Both the position numbers and the translations under genes were made by a program. The notes under the pieces were generated by a model. That model made no database searches and was not told the DNA's origin. It saw only the letters and a list, made by a program, of their open reading frames with translations. 64,000 nt of DNA from Pseudomonas sp. A34-9 (GTDB lineage Bacteria; Pseudomonadota; Gammaproteobacteria; Pseudomonadales; Pseudomonadaceae), in assembly GCF_029543085.1 (NCBI RefSeq), contig NZ_CP119967.1:3436501-3500500 (forward strand), written 5' to 3'. Positions 11,892 to 20,161 of the stretch are shown one piece after another (the stretch's first letter is position 1; every line of letters starts with the position of its first letter).

Positions 11892-13076
11892 TCAATGCTG
11901 GAGCGCATAGCGCCGACAATGTTCCAAATAGCCTTTTTCATGATTGCCGACCAATTGCACAACACTGGTCCACAGCCACGAAGGCGCATCCAGACGTTTC
12001 GACCGGCAGGTTTGCAAGTCCGCCATCCACTCGGATCGGGTGGCCAGATCCATTTGCCGGGCATGCGCCACGCCGACGACTCGCGCCAGGTAGCCGGCCG
12101 CGAGCATCGCATCGCGCTGACTCAGCTGATCCAGTTCCAGCTTCATGTCCTGCGGCAGTAATTCCCGGACGAAAAAGCCGTGGTCGAGCATGCGTGTCGC
12201 CAGCATCCGATTGCCCAGCCCAGGAGACAGAAACCGCGCGCCTTCGACCACGCGTTTGCCATTGTCGCGGGGCATGGCCGCTCGGGCGGCGCGCGGTGCC
12301 GCAGCACCGACGGCTTCTTTGATATCGAGCAGGCAATATTCCTCATCGTCGCCCTTGCCCACGCCCAGCAGCACGGCGTAACGCTTCAACCCCAGCGAAC
12401 TACAGCCTTTTACCCAATACGCCGAGTCGAGCATTTTCACTCGATCATCCTTGGAGCGGCCCTTCAAGGAAGTCACCAGCGTATGGATTTCGGGGGTGGC
12501 ACAGAGCGTTTTCAACGCCGCGCGTTCATCGCGTGAAAGCGTCCAGAACTGTTTGCCCAATGGAATGGTTGGCTTGGTGTTCTCGATGCGCTCTTCGGCC
12601 AAATGCTTCCAGGTGCGCTGCACGGCGCTGCGCATCCCGGCTTTGACTTGTGCCGGCCGCGGCGGATCTTCATCAAGATTGCCGGCAAAGGCTTGCTCGT
12701 AGCCGCGCATCATTTCTTCCAGCATGCGTGCGGTCGCCACGCCCGGCAGGTCTGAGCCGCGTGCTGCCGTCGCGAGTGACAGCGCCAGACGCACCAGATC
12801 ATGCACCGGGTTGCCGATCACGGTCTGGTCAAGGTCACGGATATGAATATCGATCTGCCCTTTGAGATCCCCGGTCGGGCCCAGATTGCCGGCATGACAA
12901 TCGCCGCAGATCCACACCGGCGGGCCTTTTGGCAGGCTGCGGCCCGGCTGGCTGTGCAGCCACTCGTAAAACTGCACGGTGCTGCCGCGCACATAGGCGT
13001 GCGCGGATCGGGCCATCTTCAGATTGCGCAGTTGCGACAGCGGTTCAAGTCGGGCGGAAGGACGCGGGGTTTTCAT
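11892..13076 (-). CDS. DUF2252 family protein
   Basis: The 394-residue protein matches DUF2252, a family with a kinase-like fold. The ICGDCHAGNLG motif at 57-66 resembles the HGDxHxGN catalytic loop of aminoglycoside phosphotransferases. HIRDLDQT at about 78-85 sits where the metal-binding Asp would be. Further conserved blocks are KGCSSLGLKRYAVLLGVG and a long helical C-terminus. No signal peptide or membrane segment is visible. It converges with the GlxA regulator (5 bp between stops) and is monocistronic. Its biochemical role is unknown. Phosphotransfer is suggested by the fold only. Confidence 0.8.
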   Translation of the reverse strand: MKTPRPSARLEPLSQLRNLKMARSAHAYVRGSTVQFYEWLHSQPGRSLPKGPPVWICGDCHAGNLGPTGDLKGQIDIHIRDLDQTVIGNPVHDLVRLALSLATAARGSDLPGVATARMLEEMMRGYEQAFAGNLDEDPPRPAQVKAGMRSAVQRTWKHLAEERIENTKPTIPLGKQFWTLSRDERAALKTLCATPEIHTLVTSLKGRSKDDRVKMLDSAYWVKGCSSLGLKRYAVLLGVGKGDDEEYCLLDIKEAVGAAAPRAARAAMPRDNGKRVVEGARFLSPGLGNRMLATRMLDHGFFVRELLPQDMKLELDQLSQRDAMLAAGYLARVVGVAHARQMDLATRSEWMADLQTCRSKRLDAPSWLWTSVVQLVGNHEKGYLEHCRRYALQH

Positions 13077-13168
13077 GGACGCTTCTTATGCGGGATGTGA
13101 CCTGTTGACCGCTCGCGACGCACGAATGTTTCAAAGTGTTTCAGAGAAATTCGTAAAAGCTATTCGCT

Positions 13169-14497
13169 CTAGAGTGGCAGTTCTACGCACGCCAGTAACC
13201 CTCCAGCGTGGCGGTTGCTCAGCGTCAACTCGCCCCCCTGCTCGCGCGCAATCGCCCGCGCCGCCGACAGCCCCAGGCCTACGCCCCCGGTGTCGCGGTT
13301 GCGCGAAGCCTCCAGACGAAAGAACGGATCGAACACCCGCTCCAACGCCGCTTCGGGAATACCGGGGCCTTCGTCGCTGACCTCGATACGAATCGAATAC
13401 TCGTCACGCGTCAACGCAATGGCCGGACGCTGCGCATACTTCAACGCATTTTCCAGCAGATTGACGATCACCCGTTTGATCCCCAGCGGCCGGCCTTCGT
13501 ACACCAGATGCGCCGGGCCATCGAAATCGACATTGATGTGTTGATCGCGGTAATCGTCGACGATGGTTTGCAGCAGCTCCGACAGATCGAACGCAGTGGT
13601 CTGCTCGCGGTGCGTGTCCTCGCGAAAAAACGCCAACGCAGCGTTGATCATCGACTGCATCTCCTCAACGTCACGAATCAGTTTGCCCTGATGATCGAGG
13701 TCTTCCATGAACTCACTGCGCAAACGCATGCGTGTCAGCGGTGCGCGTAAATCGTGGGAGATGGACGCCAGCATGTGCGTGCGCTCGGCGATGAAGTGCT
13801 GGATCTGCGCCTGCATGGTGTTGAAGGCGATGATCGCCTGGCGAATTTCGTCGGGGCCTTCGAGCTTGATCGGCGGTGCGCGTAGATCGGTGCCGAAGCG
13901 TCTGGCGGCACGCGTGAAACGCTGCAACGGATTGGCCAGTTGCCGGGTGGCGACCCAGGCGACGAGCAATGTGGCAATCAGTCCCAACGCGATGACGATC
14001 GCGATACGCACGCCAAATTCCAGACCCCAACTGCGCTCCGGCGGGATAAATGACAACCAGCTGCCATCGACCAATTGCACGACGGCGGCGTAATGCGCCT
14101 GGGGATTACCGTTCGGCCAGTCGCCTGGGCTGAACACCTCGATTTTTCGATCATTGCCCAGCAGTTGCTGCAGCACCGGCACCCGGCTCGCTGGCAGGCG
14201 AAGCCCGTCATTGGGCAGGCCGAAGTCCGCACGCTGCGCTTTCCACGTCACGTGCAGCATGGCGCTGCTCGCCGCTGCGGCCAGTTGCGGGCGCAGGTTG
14301 GCCGGGGCCGCTTCGATCACCCGCGAGGTCGCGGCAATCTGCTCTAGCAGGCCGGTGCGTTCAATCGGTGGCCGCGCCCAGATGCCGGCGACTTGCACGA
14401 ACAGCGCATTCAATGCCAACGAAGCGACCATCGCCGCCACGATGGTCAGGGCGATGTGCCGGCGCAGGGTGTCGCCGCGCAACAGTCGGCGGATCAT
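13169..14497 (-). CDS. Sensor histidine kinase (EnvZ/OmpB type)
   Basis: The 442-residue inner-membrane kinase has a first membrane helix at about 14-38, a periplasmic sensor region to about 160, and a second helix at 163-183. A HAMP linker follows, then the dimerisation/phosphoacceptor motif SISHDLRAPLTRMRLR with His248. The ATPase domain carries NLLENALKYA (Asn350), DEGPGI (375-380), FDPFFR and GVGLGLS (405-411). Its start codon overlaps the stop of the response regulator gene by one base (TGATG), so the two are translationally coupled. The signal is unknown; the periplasmic domain shows no recognisable fold. Confidence 0.9.
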   Translation of the reverse strand: MIRRLLRGDTLRRHIALTIVAAMVASLALNALFVQVAGIWARPPIERTGLLEQIAATSRVIEAAPANLRPQLAAAASSAMLHVTWKAQRADFGLPNDGLRLPASRVPVLQQLLGNDRKIEVFSPGDWPNGNPQAHYAAVVQLVDGSWLSFIPPERSWGLEFGVRIAIVIALGLIATLLVAWVATRQLANPLQRFTRAARRFGTDLRAPPIKLEGPDEIRQAIIAFNTMQAQIQHFIAERTHMLASISHDLRAPLTRMRLRSEFMEDLDHQGKLIRDVEEMQSMINAALAFFREDTHREQTTAFDLSELLQTIVDDYRDQHINVDFDGPAHLVYEGRPLGIKRVIVNLLENALKYAQRPAIALTRDEYSIRIEVSDEGPGIPEAALERVFDPFFRLEASRNRDTGGVGLGLSAARAIAREQGGELTLSNRHAGGLLACVELPL

Positions 14498-15216
14498 CAG
14501 CGGCTGACCTTGGCGGTGAACAGATAGCCGCCGTTGCGCACCGTACGAATCAGGTCCGGGCGCTTGCTGTCCGGTTCAATCTTGCGGCGCAGGCGGCTGA
14601 CTTGCACATCGATGCTGCGATCAAAGGCGTCATGGCCGTGGCCGTGGGTCAGGTCGATCAACTGTTCGCGGGTAAGAATGCGCTGCGGGTGATCGAGGAA
14701 CACCACCAGCAAATCGAACTCGCCACCGGACAGCGGAATCATCACGTTCTCCGGTGAGCGCAGTTCGCGACAGGTGATGTCCAGATGCCAACCGGCGAAA
14801 CCGATCACCGGCCGCGACGGTTCGACCGGATTGCGCTGTTCAGCGGCGCGGCGCTGCAAGGCACGTACGCGTGCGAGCAGTTCCTGTGGGGCGAACGGCT
14901 TGGTCAGGTAATCGTCTGCACCCAGTTCCAGCCCGACAATGCGATCGCTCAGCTCGGCCATGGCCGTGAGCATGATGATCGGAATGCCCAACTGCGCGCG
15001 CACTTTCTGGCACAGGCTCAGGCCGCTTTCGCCGGGCATCATCACATCAAGAATGATCGTGTCCGGACGGTTCTGCGCGATCGCTGCCCACATGGCCTCG
15101 CCGTGCGGCGCCACGTCGACTTCATAAGCGTGCTGAACGAAGAACTTCTTCAGCAGCGCGAGGATTTCCACGTCGTCGTCGACGAACAGCAGTCTGCTCA
15201 CAGTCACAGGATCCAT
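14497..15216 (-). CDS. OmpR-family response regulator
   Basis: The 239-residue regulator has a receiver domain (phosphoacceptor Asp57 in IILDVMMPGESG, LTA at about 83, and Lys in LTKPFAP). A winged-helix OmpR/PhoB DNA-binding domain follows, with LSGGEFDLLVVFLDHP, REQLIDLTHG and VSRLRRKIEPD. It is cytoplasmic and acts with the histidine kinase downstream. Two start choices exist: the ATG at 15216 with weak upstream GGGTG, and a GTG at 15201 preceded by GGATCC. The divergent small gene at 15364 is a candidate target because the two share a 147-bp control region. Confidence 0.9.
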   Translation of the reverse strand: MDPVTVSRLLFVDDDVEILALLKKFFVQHAYEVDVAPHGEAMWAAIAQNRPDTIILDVMMPGESGLSLCQKVRAQLGIPIIMLTAMAELSDRIVGLELGADDYLTKPFAPQELLARVRALQRRAAEQRNPVEPSRPVIGFAGWHLDITCRELRSPENVMIPLSGGEFDLLVVFLDHPQRILTREQLIDLTHGHGHDAFDRSIDVQVSRLRRKIEPDSKRPDLIRTVRNGGYLFTAKVSR

Positions 15217-15363
15217 GCACCCAAAAAAGCCAATCTAAAGCCATTTCGCCGCCCGGGTCATTTATTTCAATCGAGCAACATTTCTACCCGCCAGACATCA
15301 AGCGGACATTCTCTGGCAAAACCTCGCGGGCATTCTGCAGCCATTCCAATCCAGGGGGTTCGC

Positions 15364-15684
15364 ATGAAGCTATTGAACGACAACCATTGCGCCGAGGGGC
15401 ACAACAGCAATCGTCCCTTGATCCTCAGCCAGCGCACTGCCGCGCTCGGCCCTGATACACCGATTGTGTTTCAGGAGTCGTGCCTGAGCGTGTCCGGCGA
15501 TCAGAGCCGCATCGTCCTGCGCCGCTACTTCGAGCAGTTCAGCCCGACCAATGCGCACTGGGTCGAATACGTCCACAGTATTGCCGCCGCCGACCTCATC
15601 GCATGGATCATGCGCCACGGCCAGTTGCACATCGAATGCTCGGACAGCGTCACGACACAACACCACAAGGGAACCCGGTCATGA
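15364..15684 (+). CDS. Conserved hypothetical small protein, coupled to a downstream lipoprotein
   Basis: This is a 106-residue soluble protein with no signal peptide. A central SRIVLRRYFEQFSPTNAHWVEY and an amphipathic C-terminal AADLIAWIMRHGQLHIEC suggest a compact alpha/beta fold. A GGGGG ribosome binding site precedes the ATG at 15364. Its stop codon overlaps the start of the next gene (ATGA at 15681-15684). It is divergent from the two-component regulator gene and may be its target. I do not recognise a family. Confidence 0.65.
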   Translation: MKLLNDNHCAEGHNSNRPLILSQRTAALGPDTPIVFQESCLSVSGDQSRIVLRRYFEQFSPTNAHWVEYVHSIAAADLIAWIMRHGQLHIECSDSVTTQHHKGTRS

Positions 15685-15842
15685 GAAGCCCTTGCCTGAT
15701 GACGCTGCTCTGTACGACGTCAATGAGCCTGTCCGGGTGCAGCAGCAATAACGTCGAACCGACGGGGTTTCTGCATGATTATTTGCAGCACACGGGATCT
15801 GCCGATCAATGCGTTGGATATCGTTGTTCGCTGACGAATTAG
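15681..15842 (+). CDS. Small lipoprotein, translationally coupled
   Basis: This 53-residue product has an N-terminal signal peptide ending in a lipobox (SLSGC, Cys about residue 20). A mature peptide of about 34 residues containing SSNN and three further residues of Cys/Tyr character (DQCVGYRCS) follows. It starts inside the stop codon of the preceding gene (ATGA overlap), so its translation should depend on that gene. A lipid-anchored envelope peptide beside a two-component system suggests an accessory or stress-sensing role, which is inference only. It is easily missed because a longer frame starting upstream masks the true start. Confidence 0.6.
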   Translation: MRSPCLMTLLCTTSMSLSGCSSNNVEPTGFLHDYLQHTGSADQCVGYRCSLTN

Positions 15843-15859
15843 GTGTTATTTAAAAAGAC

Positions 15860-15889
15860 AGATCAAAAGATCGTTCGATCTTTTGATCT
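15860..15889. repeat. Perfect 14-bp-arm palindrome (REP tail)
   Basis: AGATCAAAAGATCG and CGATCTTTTGATCT flank a TT loop. The GATCTTTTGATC tail is the same one that ends the REP elements elsewhere in the window. It marks the left border of the duplicated DUF6124 unit and could also end transcription of the small lipoprotein gene. Confidence 0.7.
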
Positions 15890-15980
15890 AAACAGACACG
15901 TTTAAAAGACACCTTCAGACACGGGTTCAAGGCTACGCATCCTTGCGTAATTGCCTACAGCTACGCCAGAATCCGCCGGC

Positions 15981-16239
15981 TTGTGCGCCTTGGGGCCGGG
16001 TTCTATTGTGGTTCGGTCGCTGACGAATCAGCGATCGGGTTTCGCAGCCCGGACCAATCAAGGCGCACAGCGCTCCCGATCGTTGCTCTCAGGATTTATT
16101 GCAACGGTGCTTCATGGCGGCTGTGCGCGGGATACCTTCGGGTATGCCGGGTTCCTTGATTCCCGGTCTGCGAACCTGCGTACAGTTGCCACCTCTCTTC
16201 GTTTCGCAGCGAAATGTGGCGGCTCCAACAATCAAGGAG
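15981..16239 (+). promoter_or_regulatory. Structured leader, copy 1: candidate attenuator-like translational switch
   Basis: Four segments can pair in competing ways. Segment 1 (TGTGCGCCTTG, 15982-15992) is complementary to segment 2 (CAAGGCGCACA, 16059-16069). Segment 2 (TTCGCAG at 16041-16047 and AATCAAGG at 16056-16063) is complementary to segment 3 (CCTTGATT at 16154-16161 and CTGCGAA at 16168-16174). Segment 3 is equally complementary to segment 4 (TTCGCAG at 16203-16209 and AATCAAGGA at 16230-16238). Segment 4 contains the AAGGAG ribosome binding site of the gene at 16247. Inside lies a UUCG hairpin (ATACC/GGTAT, 16132-16145). An upstream hairpin CGCTGA/TCAGCG sits at 16018-16033. Pairing 3:4 would hide the ribosome binding site and pairing 2:3 would free it. 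Confidence 0.6.
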
Positions 16240-16246
16240 CTTCACC

Positions 16247-16606
16247 ATGATCAAACCAACGCCAAACCCGCCCGAAACCGACCTCACCTCCCCCTACGAA
16301 TCCCTCGATTCGAAAAAGCTAAACGACGCCGCCGACCGCGCCCTCGATCACTACCTCTGCCCGCCCGGGTCGACGCCACCGCCCCGTAGAACCCGCAGGA
16401 TGTACGCCGTTACCGCGGACTTCAAAAACGAGGAGCTGCTGGCCGATGCCTTTGAAACCCTCGCCTCGGCAAGAACCATCGCCAATGACTTCGCCCATCT
16501 CATGCCTGCTTCGCAGCGTCGAACGCTGTTGGGCATTGCGCAACTGATCATGCTCGGGGAACTGGCGGTGAATCGGGTACTGGATAATTTGCAGGTGCCG
16601 AGTTGA
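16247..16606 (+). CDS. DUF6124 family protein, copy 1
   Basis: This 119-residue cytoplasmic protein belongs to the small Pseudomonas-specific family now called DUF6124 (often DUF3077-related). It has a Pro-rich N-terminus (IKPTPNPPETD), then SPYESLDSKKLNDAADRALDHYLCPP, then a helical half containing NEELLADAFETLASARTIANDFAHLM and SQRRTLLGIAQLIMLGELAVNRVLDNL. No function is known. AAGGAG lies 7 bases before the ATG and can be masked by the leader. Copy 2 encodes the same protein except for the final residue (Ser here, Gly there). The nucleotide differences are otherwise mostly synonymous. Confidence 0.85.
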   Translation: MIKPTPNPPETDLTSPYESLDSKKLNDAADRALDHYLCPPGSTPPPRRTRRMYAVTADFKNEELLADAFETLASARTIANDFAHLMPASQRRTLLGIAQLIMLGELAVNRVLDNLQVPS

Positions 16607-16654
16607 AGCCGGGACTGTAAACACTGGCTGAGTTATTCATTAACCCTCTGGCCC

Positions 16655-16720
16655 CTTCGCGAGCAAGCTCGCTCCCACGGTTGATCGCGTTCCAATGTGG
16701 GAGCGAGCCTGCTCGCGAAG
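16655..16720. repeat. Inverted pair of REP elements
   Basis: CTTCGCGAGCAAGCTCGCTC and its inverted partner GAGCGAGCCTGCTCGCGAAG surround a short spacer. This is the P. fluorescens-type REP doublet. It recurs at 17627-17692 as part of the duplicated unit and in related form at 22416-22520. Confidence 0.85.
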
Positions 16721-16752
16721 ACTGGCGTGTAAGCAACGCAATTCCATCAGAC

Positions 16753-16796
16753 AAAAAAAGCCCCGCCACCCCGTGCAATCGGGATGGCGGGTTTTG
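16753..16796 (+). terminator. Rho-independent terminator of DUF6124 copy 1
   Basis: CCCGCCA and TGGCGGG arms with an inner CCCG/CGGG pair are preceded by seven A residues and followed by TTTT. The same structure occurs after copy 2. Confidence 0.8.
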
Positions 16797-16817
16797 TCGT
16801 TTTCGCGAGGCAAGATC

Positions 16818-16890
16818 AGCAGATCGCAGCCTTCAGCAGCTCCTACATGGACCAGTGTAGGAGCTGCCGAAGGCTGTGATCTTTTGATCT
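16818..16890. repeat. Inverted REP pair (second type) at the duplication junction
   Basis: AGATCGCAGCCTTCAGCAGC and an inverted copy (TGTAGGAGCTGCCGAAGGCT, then GATCTTTTGATCT) face each other across ATGGACCAG. The left half also ends copy 2 of the duplication and the right half begins it, so the element marks the junction of the tandem duplication. Confidence 0.75.
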
Positions 16891-16981
16891 AAACAGACGC
16901 GTTTAAAAGACACCTTCAGACACGGGTTCAAGGCTACACATCCTTGCGTAATTGCCTACGGCTACGCCAGAATCCGCCGGC

Positions 16982-17211
16982 TTGTGCGCCTTGGGGCCGG
17001 GTTCTATTGTGGTGCGGTCGCTGACGTTTCAGTGATCGGGTTTAGCAGCTCGGCAATTCTCAAGGCGCGCGAGTTTCGCCATTACGTTATGGCGGCTTTG
17101 CGTGGGGCACTTCGGTGCGCCGGGATCCTTGAGCCTGGTCTGCTAACCCGCGTACAGCCGCCACCTCTTCGTTTAGCAGCGATGGTTGACGGCTCCGTTT
17201 TTCTCAAGGAG
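16982..17211 (+). promoter_or_regulatory. Structured leader, copy 2: same switch with changed pairing segments
   Basis: The layout matches copy 1, but the pairing segments differ together. TTAGCAG (17042-17048), CTGCTAA (17140-17146) and TTAGCAG (17173-17179) replace TTCGCAG, CTGCGAA and TTCGCAG. CTCAAGG (17059-17065), CCTTGAG (17127-17133) and CTCAAGG (17203-17209) replace ATCAAGG, CCTTGAT and ATCAAGG. The internal hairpin is GCAC-TTCG-GTGC (17107-17118) in place of ATACC-TTCG-GGTAT. Segment 1 is unchanged and still pairs with segment 2 through G-U pairs. The third CTCAAGGAG contains the ribosome binding site of the gene at 17219. Such compensatory change in three partners supports real base pairing. 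Confidence 0.6.
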
Positions 17212-17218
17212 CTTCACC

Positions 17219-17578
17219 ATGATCAAACCAACGCCAAACCCGCCCGAAACCGACCTCACCTCCCCCTACGAATCCCTCGATTCGAAAAAGCTCAACGACG
17301 CCGCCGACCGCGCCCTCGATCATTACCTCTGCCCGCCCGGGTCCACGCCACCTCCCCGTAGAACCCGCAGGATGTACGCCGTCACCGCGGACTTCAAAAA
17401 TGAGGAGCTGCTGGCCGATGCCTTTGAAACCCTCGCCTCGGCAAGAACCATCGCCAATGACTTCGCCCATCTCATGCCTGCTTCGCAGCGTCGAACGCTG
17501 TTGGGCATTGCGCAACTGATCATGCTCGGGGAACTGGCGGTGAATCGGGTACTGGATAATTTGCAGGTGCCCGGTTGA
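17219..17578 (+). CDS. DUF6124 family protein, copy 2
   Basis: This 119-residue protein is identical to copy 1 except for the last residue (Gly instead of Ser). Silent differences are scattered through the gene (for example in the codons for Asp-His-Tyr and Pro-Gly-Ser-Thr), so the two copies are under protein-level constraint. The gene, its leader, the REP pair and the terminator all belong to a tandem duplication. AAGGAG lies 7 bases before the ATG inside leader segment 4. The function of the family is unknown. Having two copies under different leader variants suggests that dosage or condition-specific expression matters. Confidence 0.85.
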   Translation: MIKPTPNPPETDLTSPYESLDSKKLNDAADRALDHYLCPPGSTPPPRRTRRMYAVTADFKNEELLADAFETLASARTIANDFAHLMPASQRRTLLGIAQLIMLGELAVNRVLDNLQVPG

Positions 17579-17626
17579 GGCCGGGACTGTAAGCACTGGC
17601 TGAGTTCTTCAGTAACCCTCTGGCCC

Positions 17627-17692
17627 CTTCGCGAGCAAGCTCGCTCCCACGGTTGATCGCGTTCCAATGTGGGAGCGAGCCTGCTCGCGAAG
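17627..17692. repeat. Inverted pair of REP elements (copy in the duplicated unit)
   Basis: This doublet is essentially identical to that at 16655-16720, with the same GGTTGATCGCGTTCCAAT spacer. It was evidently carried along in the duplication. Confidence 0.85.
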
Positions 17693-17724
17693 ACTGGCGT
17701 GTAAGCAACGCAATTCCATCAGAC

Positions 17725-17768
17725 AAAAAAAGCCCCGCCACCCCGTGCAATCGGGCTGGCGGGTTTTT
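17725..17768 (+). terminator. Rho-independent terminator of DUF6124 copy 2
   Basis: CCCGCCA/TGGCGGG arms are followed by TTTTT. It differs from the copy 1 terminator by an A-to-C change in the inner loop region. Confidence 0.8.
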
Positions 17769-17939
17769 CCTTTTCGCGAGGCAAGATCAGCAGATCGCAG
17801 CCCTAGAGAAGCGTCTACAGGGAAAAAAAGCAGTTAGCGGTGAATTATTTCGTGTCCTCATGTATCTGAGCCAAAGAGCACGCGCCATCAAATAGATGGC
17901 ATCTACGCGGCAAGATGGATTAGTAAAGAGAATACGCGG

Positions 17940-19445
17940 ATGAAATCACGTAAAAACAGCGTCAAACCGATCGGCCTGAAAGACATCACCATCGTCGACG
18001 ACGCCAAGATGCGCAAAGCCATTACGGCCGCCGCACTCGGCAATGCCATGGAATGGTTCGACTTCGGGGTCTACGGCTTTGTCGCCTATGTGCTCGGCAA
18101 GGTGTTTTTCCCGGGCGCCGATCCGGGCACGCAAATGATCGCCGCACTGGCGACGTTCTCGGTGCCGTTCCTGATTCGGCCGTTGGGTGGGCTGTTCTTC
18201 GGCGCACTGGGCGACAAGTACGGGCGGCAGAAAGTCCTCGCCGCGACCATCGTGATCATGTCGCTGAGCACCTTCGCCATCGGCCTGATTCCGTCTTATG
18301 CCTCGATTGGCATCTGGGCACCGATTCTGCTGTTATTGGCAAAAATGGCCCAAGGCTTCTCGGTGGGCGGCGAATACACCGGCGCGTCGATCTTCGTCGC
18401 CGAATATGCGCCGGACCGTAAACGCGGGTTTCTCGGCAGTTGGCTGGATTTCGGTTCGATTGCCGGTTTCGTTCTCGGTGCCGGCGTGGTGGTGTTGATT
18501 TCTTCGACGCTGGGTGAGGCGAAATTCGAAGAATGGGGCTGGCGCCTGCCGTTCTTCCTTGCCCTGCCGCTGGGCATGATCGGCCTCTACCTGCGCCACG
18601 CTCTGGAAGAAACCCCGGCGTTCCAGCAGCACGTCGAAAAACTCGAGCAAGGTGATCGCGAAGGCCTCGCCGGCGGACCGAAAGTCTCGTTCAAGGAAGT
18701 CGCGACCAAGCACTGGCGCAGCCTCATGACCTGCGTCGGCGTGGTGGCCGTGACTAACGTCACTTACTACATGCTGCTCACTTACATGCCGAGTTACCTG
18801 TCGCACAACCTGCACTACAGCGAAAACCGTGGCGTGCTGATCATCATCGCGATCATGGTGGGCATGTTGTTCGTGCAACCGGCCATTGGCTTCATCAGCG
18901 ACAAGATCGGCCGCAAGCCCTTTATCGTCGTCGGCAGCATCGGTTTGTTCATTCTGGCGATTCCGGCGTTCATGCTGATCAACAGCGGCAAGATCGGCCT
19001 GATCTTCGCAGGCTTGCTGATGTTGGCCGTGCTGCTCAACTTTTTCATCGGCGTGATGGCCTCGACCTTGCCAGCAATGTTCCCCACGCACATCCGCTAC
19101 AGCGCCCTGGCCGCGGCCTTCAACATTTCGGTGCTGATTGCCGGTTTGACCCCGACTGTCGTCGCCTGGTTGGTGGAAAGCACCAACGACCTGTACATGC
19201 CGGCTTATTACCTGATGGTCATTGCCGTGGTCGGCCTGGTTACTGGCGTGACCATGAAAGAAACCGCCAACAAACCACTGCGTGGCGCGGCACCGGCGGC
19301 TTCCGACCTGGAAGAAGCGAAAGAGTTGTTGCAGGAGCATCACGACAACATCGAGCAGAAGATCGAAGACATCGACGCTGAAATTGCTGAACTGGAAGCC
19401 AAACGCAAGAATCTGGTGCAGCAGCATCCGCGGATCAACGAATAA
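17940..19445 (+). CDS. proP: ProP-like proline/betaine:H+ symporter (MFS)
   Basis: This 501-residue, 12-helix major facilitator is of the metabolite:H+ symporter group. The GNAMEWFDFGVYG motif in helix 1, GGLFFGALGDKYGRQKVL in loop 2-3, GFSVGGEYTGASIFVAEYAP, and the matching ISDKIGRKPFIVV loop in the second half are typical. The C-terminus carries a charged heptad region (about 445-495) that should form the antiparallel coiled coil which tunes ProP to osmotic strength. It imports proline, glycine betaine and other compatible solutes. The upstream region holds a small GCCATC/GATGGC hairpin (17884-17900) but no clear ribosome binding site beyond GAG. Confidence 0.88.
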   Translation: MKSRKNSVKPIGLKDITIVDDAKMRKAITAAALGNAMEWFDFGVYGFVAYVLGKVFFPGADPGTQMIAALATFSVPFLIRPLGGLFFGALGDKYGRQKVLAATIVIMSLSTFAIGLIPSYASIGIWAPILLLLAKMAQGFSVGGEYTGASIFVAEYAPDRKRGFLGSWLDFGSIAGFVLGAGVVVLISSTLGEAKFEEWGWRLPFFLALPLGMIGLYLRHALEETPAFQQHVEKLEQGDREGLAGGPKVSFKEVATKHWRSLMTCVGVVAVTNVTYYMLLTYMPSYLSHNLHYSENRGVLIIIAIMVGMLFVQPAIGFISDKIGRKPFIVVGSIGLFILAIPAFMLINSGKIGLIFAGLLMLAVLLNFFIGVMASTLPAMFPTHIRYSALAAAFNISVLIAGLTPTVVAWLVESTNDLYMPAYYLMVIAVVGLVTGVTMKETANKPLRGAAPAASDLEEAKELLQEHHDNIEQKIEDIDAEIAELEAKRKNLVQQHPRINE

Positions 19446-19567
19446 ACAATCCGCCCTTGTGGCTGGGGAGCAAGTTCCCTGGCCACAAAGTCATTCGGGG
19501 TTCCAAGTCTGCGCCCCGGGATTTTTATCAGCTAGCCTTGATTGCTGAGCGTCATCAAGGAGCTGTC

Positions 19568-20161
19568 ATGTTCAAGTTCATCAAAACCACAGTGATCGGC
19601 GGACTGCTATTTATTTTGCCGTTGGTGCTGATCTTCATCCTGATCGAAAAAGCCATTCACCTGCTGCGCGGACCGATGCAAAAGCTGCTGCCGATGTTCG
19701 AAGGTCATGATGTGGCGGGCGTGACCGTGGTGACGCTGGCCACGCTGCTGGGCCTGATCGTGCTGTGTTTTCTCGCAGGACTTCTGGCCAGGACCTCGGC
19801 GGCGGCCCGGGCGATTGAAGCCACCGAAGACAAAGTGCTGAGCAATCTGCCGGGTTATCAGTTGCTCAAGGACACCACGGCGCGGTTTGCCGGCATGGAG
19901 CACGCCGATGGGACGAAGGTCGGCATGATCGCCGTAGAGCAAGGCTGGCGACTGTGTCTGGTGGTGGACAGCAGCGACGACTGGCTTACGGTGTTCATGC
20001 CTGATGGCGGCACTTCCGGCGGCACGGCTGGGGAAGTTCGCTTGCTGCGCGCCTCTGAGGTAATCATGACCGACCTGTCATGGCTGGGACTGGCAGCAGG
20101 ATTGCGTCGGGGCGGACGCGGTTTACTGGAGCAGATGCAACCATGGTTGCCGAAAACCTGA
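19568..20161 (+). CDS. DUF502 family membrane protein
   Basis: This 197-residue protein has two N-terminal membrane helices (about 8-28 and 50-76), then a cytoplasmic or periplasmic beta-rich domain with LPGYQLLKDTTARFAGM and VGMIAVEQGWRLCLVVD. The pattern matches the DUF502 family. The ATG is preceded by AAGGAG. A REP-derived sequence in front of it (19455-19490) separates it from proP, so the two are probably independently transcribed. No function has been assigned to the family. Confidence 0.75.
   Translation: MFKFIKTTVIGGLLFILPLVLIFILIEKAIHLLRGPMQKLLPMFEGHDVAGVTVVTLATLLGLIVLCFLAGLLARTSAAARAIEATEDKVLSNLPGYQLLKDTTARFAGMEHADGTKVGMIAVEQGWRLCLVVDSSDDWLTVFMPDGGTSGGTAGEVRLLRASEVIMTDLSWLGLAAGLRRGGRGLLEQMQPWLPKT

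Follow-up and report, generated by a model that had tools for sequence, protein, structure and literature searches.

C4 antisense RNA leaders of duplicated DUF6124 genes in Pseudomonas sp. A34-9 and their differently coded relatives on the same chromosome

The window analyzed here is a stretch of 64,000 nucleotides from Pseudomonas sp. A34-9 (NZ_CP119967.1, positions 3,436,501 to 3,500,500), and the question it raises is what kind of RNA stands in front of two tandem genes of the DUF6124 family. In each leader four segments can be drawn in alternative pairings, 1:2, 2:3 or 3:4, and a preliminary description took this arrangement for an attenuator-like switch, similar to the trp type but acting on translation, without a named Rfam family. 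Both leaders are instead the known C4 antisense RNA switch. The C4 model (RF01695) matches both copies, the c4-a1b1 model (RF03163) matches as well, although below threshold in copy 2, and these were the sole families to reach threshold in an Rfam scan of the window. What is known of C4, a phage immunity RNA, comes mainly from phages P1 and P7, where its layout includes the elements a1/b1 and a2/b2. Segments 2, 3 and 4 correspond to a1/b1, a'/b' and a2/b2 of the C4 system, respectively, and complementarity places the second target site, a1/b1, upstream of the C4 RNA in both copies.

Identity of the leaders and a model for their action

It is very likely that each copy is a C4-type cassette in which an antisense RNA blocks translation of DUF6124. 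The order of such a cassette would be promoter, a1/b1, C4 RNA, a2/b2 at the ribosome binding site and DUF6124 gene, with a single transcript bearing both the antisense RNA and its target. The C4 portion is expected to form a three-helix RNA with a loop, b', and a single strand, a', and would probably be excised by RNase P, which yields an RNA of about 77 nt in the C4 family; a' would then pair with a2 and b' with b2. This would keep ribosomes off the DUF6124 mRNA, in trans and perhaps also in cis. The target copy further upstream, a1/b1, would compete for a'/b', and the gene would be translatable where the 2:3 pairing wins. Processing, action in trans, the translational block and the release step involving a1/b1 are modeled on the P1/P7 and IsrK systems. 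According to one study, the homologous C4 RNA of P1/P7 is processed and targets mRNAs, and the RNase P cut site of C4 carries a GG motif (PMC5320573). At its 5' end the C4 stem has GG in all 41 C4 RNAs found on the source chromosome; their consensus is the C4 fold, and 17 of its 23 pairs show at least one two-sided change that keeps the pair.

The segment strings in the preliminary description, as well as the ribosome binding site within segment 4, are all present at their places, as is the change in both arms of a UUCG hairpin between the copies (16132-16145 versus 17107-17118). The proposed attenuation fared less well: a terminator hairpin with a T-run was found in neither copy, on which ground a trp-type attenuator was rejected, and a search for plus-strand terminator-like sites between 15700 and 17700 found none. 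No known ligand-binding riboswitch family matched the window at Rfam thresholds, an unknown class being possible. Matches to microRNA families at 16812-16892 were discarded: they cover a plain inverted repeat and their scores fall far short of the thresholds.

Differently coded cassettes across the source chromosome

Beyond family membership, we computed the pairing triads, covariation and insulation of the cassettes on the whole chromosome, and their copy number in the genus. On the source chromosome (6.54 Mb) every one of the 41 C4 matches exceeds the gathering score, as do 21 of the 37 c4-a1b1 matches. Among its 38 DUF6124 genes, 33 are preceded on their own strand by a C4 no more than 500 nt away; five have no C4 directly upstream, and two of these lie directly behind another DUF6124 gene. 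The remaining eight C4s precede other small genes, namely one DUF3077 gene, one Bro-N anti-repressor (at c6303337; 'anti-repressor Ant' in PHROGs), a type of target that is classic for C4, and six genes without a Pfam family. At 6360553-6360741 a DUF6124 gene follows an a1b1 match (6360324-6360376) and no C4 was found between them; this is perhaps a cassette minus its antisense RNA.

The 41 source C4s carry 40 distinct b' loops, as bounded by a simple stem finder. Exact matches of at least 6 nt connect a' with a2 in all 41 cassettes and with a1 in 37, and b' with b2 in 34 and with b1 in 32, compared to 9-14% for permuted partners. The predicted pairing of a'+b' with a2+b2 averages -24.0 kcal/mol over the 41 cassettes, while permuted partners average -14.83 (standard deviation, sd, 0.48), with -16.70 as the lowest of 10000 permutations; for this test four cassette starts were placed by hand, and the one chosen for c6097747 is no ATG. 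The joint change of segments 2, 3 and 4, described earlier from the two tandem copies, thus holds over 41 cassettes and far above permuted partners, and the mutually exclusive 2:3 and 3:4 pairings are supported by complementarity and covariation across many copies.

These codes are largely private. By duplex energy, the cognate target ranks first for 31 of the 41 C4s and the cognate C4 is the best for 29 of the 41 targets, and a match in both arms is found for 34 of 41 cognate pairs but for only 6 of 1640 non-cognate pairs (0.37%). If C4 acts in trans, paralogous cassettes would need different codes, and hence some 40 nearly orthogonal ones. A leader working only in cis needs no private code, and we therefore read the code diversity as indirect evidence for action in trans: the diversity of codes and the near absence of cross-matching fit better with trans-acting, mutually insulated antisense RNAs than with a cis-only switch. 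While the C4 antisense system is of a known kind, its amplified, insulated chromosomal setting was not found described in the literature searched, and it is the scale and coding of the cassettes that looks new.

Several observations weigh against this account. A foreign target ranks first for 10 of the 41 C4s, 12 of the 41 targets have a better-scoring foreign C4, and in seven of the 41 cassettes the exact match between b' and b2 is shorter than 6 nt. Insulation is not absolute, because c1892989 and c3527213 carry the same code, which accounts for two of the six non-cognate matches. The permutation tests, moreover, take no account of kinship between cassettes. Finally, release of C4 is not guaranteed, because the predicted fold of copy 1 without segment 1 traps a'/b' on a1/b1.

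The two window copies (Table 1) also indicate how codes may change. Of the 360 nt in their DUF6124 coding regions, 8 are different between the copies, and their flanks are nearly identical. The number of cassettes at this site is two in the source genome, one in a close relative (G011) and zero in another (G019). The C4 of copy 2 is almost the same as those of c3527213 and c1892989, the b' loop excepted, and differs from the C4 of G011 at 8 of 84 positions, seven of which are in the b' loop, with b1 and b2 of G011 differing to match. The scaffold of copy 2 thus recurs in other cassettes and in the one that G011 has at this site, so exchange of a C4 block may explain some of what separates the two leaders. 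The b' loop of copy 2 is found again at a locus of a named strain (L143), which makes exchange of codes between cassettes at least as likely as new mutation. The earlier assertion that the difference between the leaders is not random drift therefore stands insofar as pairing exceeds chance, but part of that difference may be block exchange and not point change.

Table 1. Positions of the leader elements and genes of the two tandem DUF6124 cassettes in the window.
Feature	Positions	Strand	Basis
Candidate sigma70 promoter, copy 1: -35 TTGTGC 15981-15986, 17 bp spacer, -10 TATTGT 16004-16009	15981..16009	+	Sequence
Segment 1, copy 1; complementary to a1 3' flank plus b1	15978..16003	+	Class-1 covariation with segment 2
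c4-a1b1 (RF03163), copy 1; hairpin 16015-16036; a1 TTCGCAG 16041-16047 within second hairpin loop	16003..16055	+	53.8 bits, gathering 46.7
b1 ATCAAGG, copy 1	16057..16063	+	Sequence
C4 antisense RNA, copy 1; b' CCTTGAT 16154-16160, a' CTGCGAA 16168-16174, UUCG hairpin 16132-16145	16110..16196	+	RF01695, 83.0 bits, gathering 45, E 8.5e-15
a2 TTCGCAG 16203-16209 and b2 ATCAAGG 16231-16237 over Shine-Dalgarno, copy 1	16203..16237	+	Sequence, complementarity statistics
DUF6124 gene, copy 1, 119 aa, start codon 16247	16247..16606	+	PF19619, E 4.1e-18
Segment 1 and candidate promoter, copy 2 (-35 16982-16987, -10 17005-17010)	16979..17010	+	Promoter-site scoring
c4-a1b1, copy 2; a1 TTAGCAG 17042-17048; b1 CTCAAGG 17059-17065 just after	17004..17056	+	RF03163, 41.3 bits, below gathering 46.7, E 1.6e-8
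C4 antisense RNA, copy 2; b' CCTTGAG 17127-17133, a' CTGCTAA 17140-17146	17085..17168	+	RF01695, 68.9 bits, gathering 45
a2 TTAGCAG 17173-17179 and b2 CTCAAGG 17203-17209 over Shine-Dalgarno, copy 2	17173..17209	+	Sequence
DUF6124 gene, copy 2, 119 aa, start codon 17219	17219..17578	+	PF19619, E 4.1e-18

An inverted repeat resembling repetitive extragenic palindromic elements (CTTCGCGAGCAAGCTCGCTCCCAC / GTGGGAGCGAGCCTGCTCGCGAAG) lies 3' of both DUF6124 genes (16650-16722 and 17622-17694) and was duplicated along with them. The surroundings (11892-20161) are ordinary chromosomal genes, including those for a DUF2252 protein, for a two-component sensor and regulator on the minus strand, and for a transporter with an Osmo_CC domain (17940-19445).

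Segment 1 and the candidate promoter

In all 41 source cassettes the best promoter-like site lies 5-8 nt before the a1 hairpin. The -35 element of these candidates starts with TTG in 33 cassettes, the spacer is 17 in 34, and in all 41 position 2 of the -10 element is A and position 6 is T, letters that the score itself favors. Their mean score is 6.91, compared to 5.20 (sd 0.71) for mononucleotide shuffles; a stricter promoter scanner did not report the candidate of copy 1. The start expected from this candidate is 16016, which is where the first position of the isrK model aligns. Segment 1 overlaps the candidate promoter.

Pairing of segment 1 with segment 2, another element of the preliminary description, is supported by covariation in a subset of cassettes. 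Over the source cassettes the pairing scores -22.57, compared to -18.40 (sd 0.56) for permuted partners (0/10000). The signal is strongest in class 1, defined as cassettes with CAGAATCC upstream (a promoter type), where 59 non-redundant members score -26.59 against -22.64 (sd 0.45) for permuted partners (0/5000, z -8.8); the 44 class-1 cassettes from outside the source genome give z -6.6. Class 3 (n=57) yields z -4.5, the non-class-1 cassettes of the genus (n=24) z -3.8 and those of the source genome (n=16) z -2.7, while class 2 (n=14, z -0.1) and the cassettes of other genera (n=17, z 0.5) show no such covariation. The 1:2 pairing is thus borne out strongly for class 1 and weakly for other cassettes of the genus, but not for class 2 or for other genera. 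That segment 1 covaries with segment 2 counts against simple conservation of a promoter.

Folding predictions suggest what this pairing might do. Folded from 16016, and thus without segment 1, copy 1 is predicted, at minimum energy, to pair a1/b1 with a'/b' and to lose the C4 fold (-101.1 kcal/mol, z -4.5), while from 15979, with segment 1, the prediction contains the 1:2 pairing and the native C4 fold (-130.6, z -5.6); the predictions for copy 2 resemble these. Across the 24 class-1 source cassettes, the fraction of native C4 pairs is 0.36 without segment 1, 0.68 with the cassette's own segment 1 (p 0.004), 0.63 with a foreign one and 0.48 with a shuffled one. The difference between own and foreign segments in this rescue is not significant (p 0.31), and eight of the 24 cassettes stay at or below 0.19 even with their own segment 1. 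We offer a role of segment 1 in switching as a hypothesis based on these predicted folds. Class-1 cassettes also share a conserved block upstream of the -35 element (15930-15980 in the window), with CCTTGCG, TTGCCTAC, CTACGCCAGAATCCGCCGGC and repeated CTAC motifs, which is a candidate for a regulator site or a second promoter.

Distribution, related systems and alternative explanations

C4 cassettes are widespread in the genus. RF01695 was found in 138 of 149 Pseudomonas genomes (source included), DUF6124 in 118 and DUF3077 in 116, with at most 27 (C4) and 38 (DUF6124) candidates scored per genome, such that copy numbers are lower bounds. In an order-level sample of 194 genomes, with at most 30 (C4) and 21 (DUF6124) candidates scored and copy numbers again lower bounds, 29 contained a C4 match and two a DUF6124 match, the latter being the source and one congener. 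Among DUF6124 loci from named Pseudomonas records, taken from the best 80 of 550 relatives and hence biased to close relatives, 77 of 79 have a C4 46-58 nt upstream; the records of the other two start 2 and 130 nt before the match. C4s in the fetched loci were sought with a model built from the 41 source C4s, and Rfam was run on ten loci. At other loci C4s precede Bro-N and AntA antirepressors, DUF3077 genes, DUF6124 variants and a recurrent protein of 52-54 amino acids. Kinship of DUF6124 and DUF3077 is suggested by one protein that matches the former (1.3e-14) and, weakly and short of the cut-off, the latter (0.0012). The 52-54 amino acid protein (RAMALAALHANSSLATRL.RYN.HM.KARALE-like) stands directly behind C4 at L077, L079, L085, L091, L092, L095, L098, L099, L102 and source cassette c5298990; the one copy tried had no Pfam match, and it is possibly an icd-like small gene.

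The resemblance to the C4 of P1 and P7 (RF01695) extends to the C4 fold, the a'/b' elements and a target at the ribosome binding site. According to two papers (PMC5320573, PMC12197685), P1 and P7 differ in C4 code and thereby in specificity, and the first of these gives a deviation of 4 nt between P1 and P7 as enough to restrict; the cassettes here likewise differ in code. Unlike in P1 and P7, there are here 41 copies on one chromosome with 40 b' loops, and an additional segment 1 in class 1. The P1/P7 target is a phage antirepressor operon (ant/icd) rather than DUF6124; because genes for Bro-N, AntA and DUF3077 are found behind other C4s, an antirepressor operon as target is a trait of the P1/P7 system and not of the RNA family. 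The c4-a1b1 family, listed by Weinberg et al. 2010 (PMC2864571), has a 53-nt model whose first position falls on the candidate -10 element, which leaves segment 1 outside it. Also similar are the C4-like Group 1 small RNAs of Acinetobacter baumannii, which have many chromosomal copies, are apparently cut from longer transcripts and vary in the a' region; the accessible text names no bacterial target for them (PMC5320573), whereas here all 41 C4s have a matching a2 directly downstream, followed in 33 cases by DUF6124. Judged by title and abstract, no paper on C4-controlled DUF6124 genes turned up in the one open library searched.

The IsrK/orf45/anrP locus of Salmonella Gifsy-1 (RF01394) likewise combines a leader small RNA region with a complementary region further downstream, and a small gene there is repressed at translation. 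The window copies do not belong to the IsrK family, scoring 35.3 bits (at 16016-16099) and 21.1 bits against a gathering score of 50. The short form of IsrK ends at an intrinsic terminator; after a1/b1 of the window copies no such terminator was seen, with no T-run before C4 in either copy. The term 'C4 antisense' occurs 0 times in the IsrK paper (PMC4825925). Elsewhere, isrK and c4-a1b1 matches overlap directly upstream of C4 (L076:1603-1704, L187:1603-1702, L195:1381-1476), and this overlap makes IsrK-orf45-anrP and C4 look like one architecture. In the Rfam output for these loci, C4 and c4-a1b1 are both assigned to clan CL00128, while isrK is given none. The CI RNA of phage P4 is also a processed RNA that pairs with an upstream and a downstream copy (seqA and seqC) but, unlike the mechanism proposed here, acts on transcription termination, as the same paper has it (PMC4825925); the Rfam scan of the window gave no match to a P4 CI-type family.

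Viral contigs contain cassettes as well. Of 79 DUF6124 loci in such contigs, 64 have a C4 within 150 nt upstream, eight have one at 520-546 nt, and seven have none, two of which begin at a contig end. Host flank could account for many of these loci, which lie close to the ends of their contigs; at least 4.9 kb of contig is present on both sides in 33 of the 79. Two DUF6124 loci lie about 17-18 kb apart on several contigs (L281/L301, L294/L313, L303/L314, L295/L316 and L288/L310), and all ten are preceded by C4. At L278 a Dsr1-like SIR2 protein is encoded upstream of the cassette and tail genes downstream, while at L292 the cassette sits between tail genes together with a methyl-directed restriction enzyme, a PD-T4-10_B match and a RelA/SpoT-like protein. 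Among 67 neighboring open reading frames, which were hand-picked from 253 (24 of 28 loci) without a control region, matches included the PADLOC models mREase_II (4), AriA (4), PtuA (3) and AbiLi (3) and the Pfam families Abi_C (3) and putAbiC (2), and one protein may match several models. As for codes, source C4s match viral targets in 10 of 1800 pairs (0.56%; 9 of 45 viral types), C4s of the named strains do so in 17 of 2025 (0.84%), and 48 of 1980 pairs match among the viral types themselves. A chromosomal C4 library directed against incoming phage targets is thus unsupported, given that 6 of 1640 non-cognate pairs match within the source genome.

The DUF6124 protein itself gives few leads. 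The predicted model (mean predicted local distance difference test score, pLDDT, 74; predicted template modeling score, pTM, 0.46) has a C-terminal helical hairpin (61-83, 88-114). A PDB fold search with the model returned nothing below E 1, and a PDB sequence search nothing below E 0.67. The window protein had no match in PHROGs, NCBIfam or PADLOC at the limits used, nor in the plasmid collection; a phage record collection contained one match, with a C4 upstream. At E 0.001 or better it has 2998 clustered relatives. Our leading guess for this protein is a role in phage conflict.

How else might these leaders be explained? They could work in cis alone, the full transcript choosing the 2:3 or the 3:4 fold much as IsrK-orf45 mRNA adopts structures A and B, without a free antisense RNA and with segment 1, if transcribed, sequestering segment 2. 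This is possible, if doubtful in our view: predicted folds of both copies flip with or without segment 1, the native fraction in class 1 rises when segment 1 is present, and mutants of the IsrK locus show two alternative structures with different translation (PMC4825925), yet such a leader has no use for the private codes described above, exchanging the cassette's own segment 1 for a foreign one costs little of the C4 rescue, a third of the class-1 source cassettes keep a low native fraction regardless, and segment 1 may not be transcribed. Termination control of the P4 CI or IsrK type, in which transcription would stop short of the gene or run on according to the pairing of C4 with upstream a1/b1, appears unlikely. 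It can draw on the pairing of P4 CI RNA with seqA and seqC, on a T-run before C4 in 8 of 41 source and 18 of 88 named-strain cassettes, and on full-length isrK matches (RF01394) in five of the ten other loci scanned (L076, L187, L195, L204 and L205), but the window copies have neither such a T-run nor an intrinsic terminator-like site on the plus strand in the interval searched, a factor-dependent terminator not being judgeable from sequence. It is comparably improbable that the cassettes are selfish or neutral repeats, that is, prophage immunity remnants spread by duplication and without present function. The varying copy number at the window site in the source genome and its two close relatives, the five DUF6124 genes lacking a direct C4, and c6097747, where no ATG-started frame of 50 amino acids is found at the expected place, would suit such remnants; against them stand the three-way complementarity kept in dozens of diverged copies, stems kept by compensatory change and reading frames of about 120 amino acids kept in most source copies.

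A conflict module between phage and host is, in contrast, something we entertain tentatively. C4 would be the immunity RNA and DUF6124 an effector of superinfection exclusion, defense or addiction, with a resident C4 silencing cassettes of the same code and chromosomal copies being captured immunity types. C4-DUF6124 cassettes in viral contigs, the defense and tail genes next to those at L278 and L292 and the defense-model matches among the chosen neighbors are consistent with this idea, but source and named-strain C4s match viral targets at rates near the non-cognate background, DUF6124 has no PADLOC match, and the neighbors were picked by hand without a control region. Antisense control of DUF6124 translation by C4, the reading we prefer, can also be extended: Pseudomonas genomes may hold a domesticated array of dozens of insulated C4 switches, with cassettes exchanged between phages and chromosome, each guarding a small DUF6124 or DUF3077 effector, and in class 1, the main chromosomal class, segment 1 would be a fourth covarying element at which the choice of start site frees C4 or traps it on its own a1/b1. 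We regard this extension as speculative, with the odds against it.

If it is true, segment 1 would turn an antisense repressor into a switch controlled by start-site choice. The cassettes of this chromosome amount to a naturally occurring collection of antisense RNAs with their targets, nearly orthogonal to one another. With it one could study the smallest number of bases that insulates two regulators, and the way in which an RNA code changes while three partners are kept matched. The DUF6124 family, for its part, gains a regulatory context and, in phage conflict, a first functional lead.

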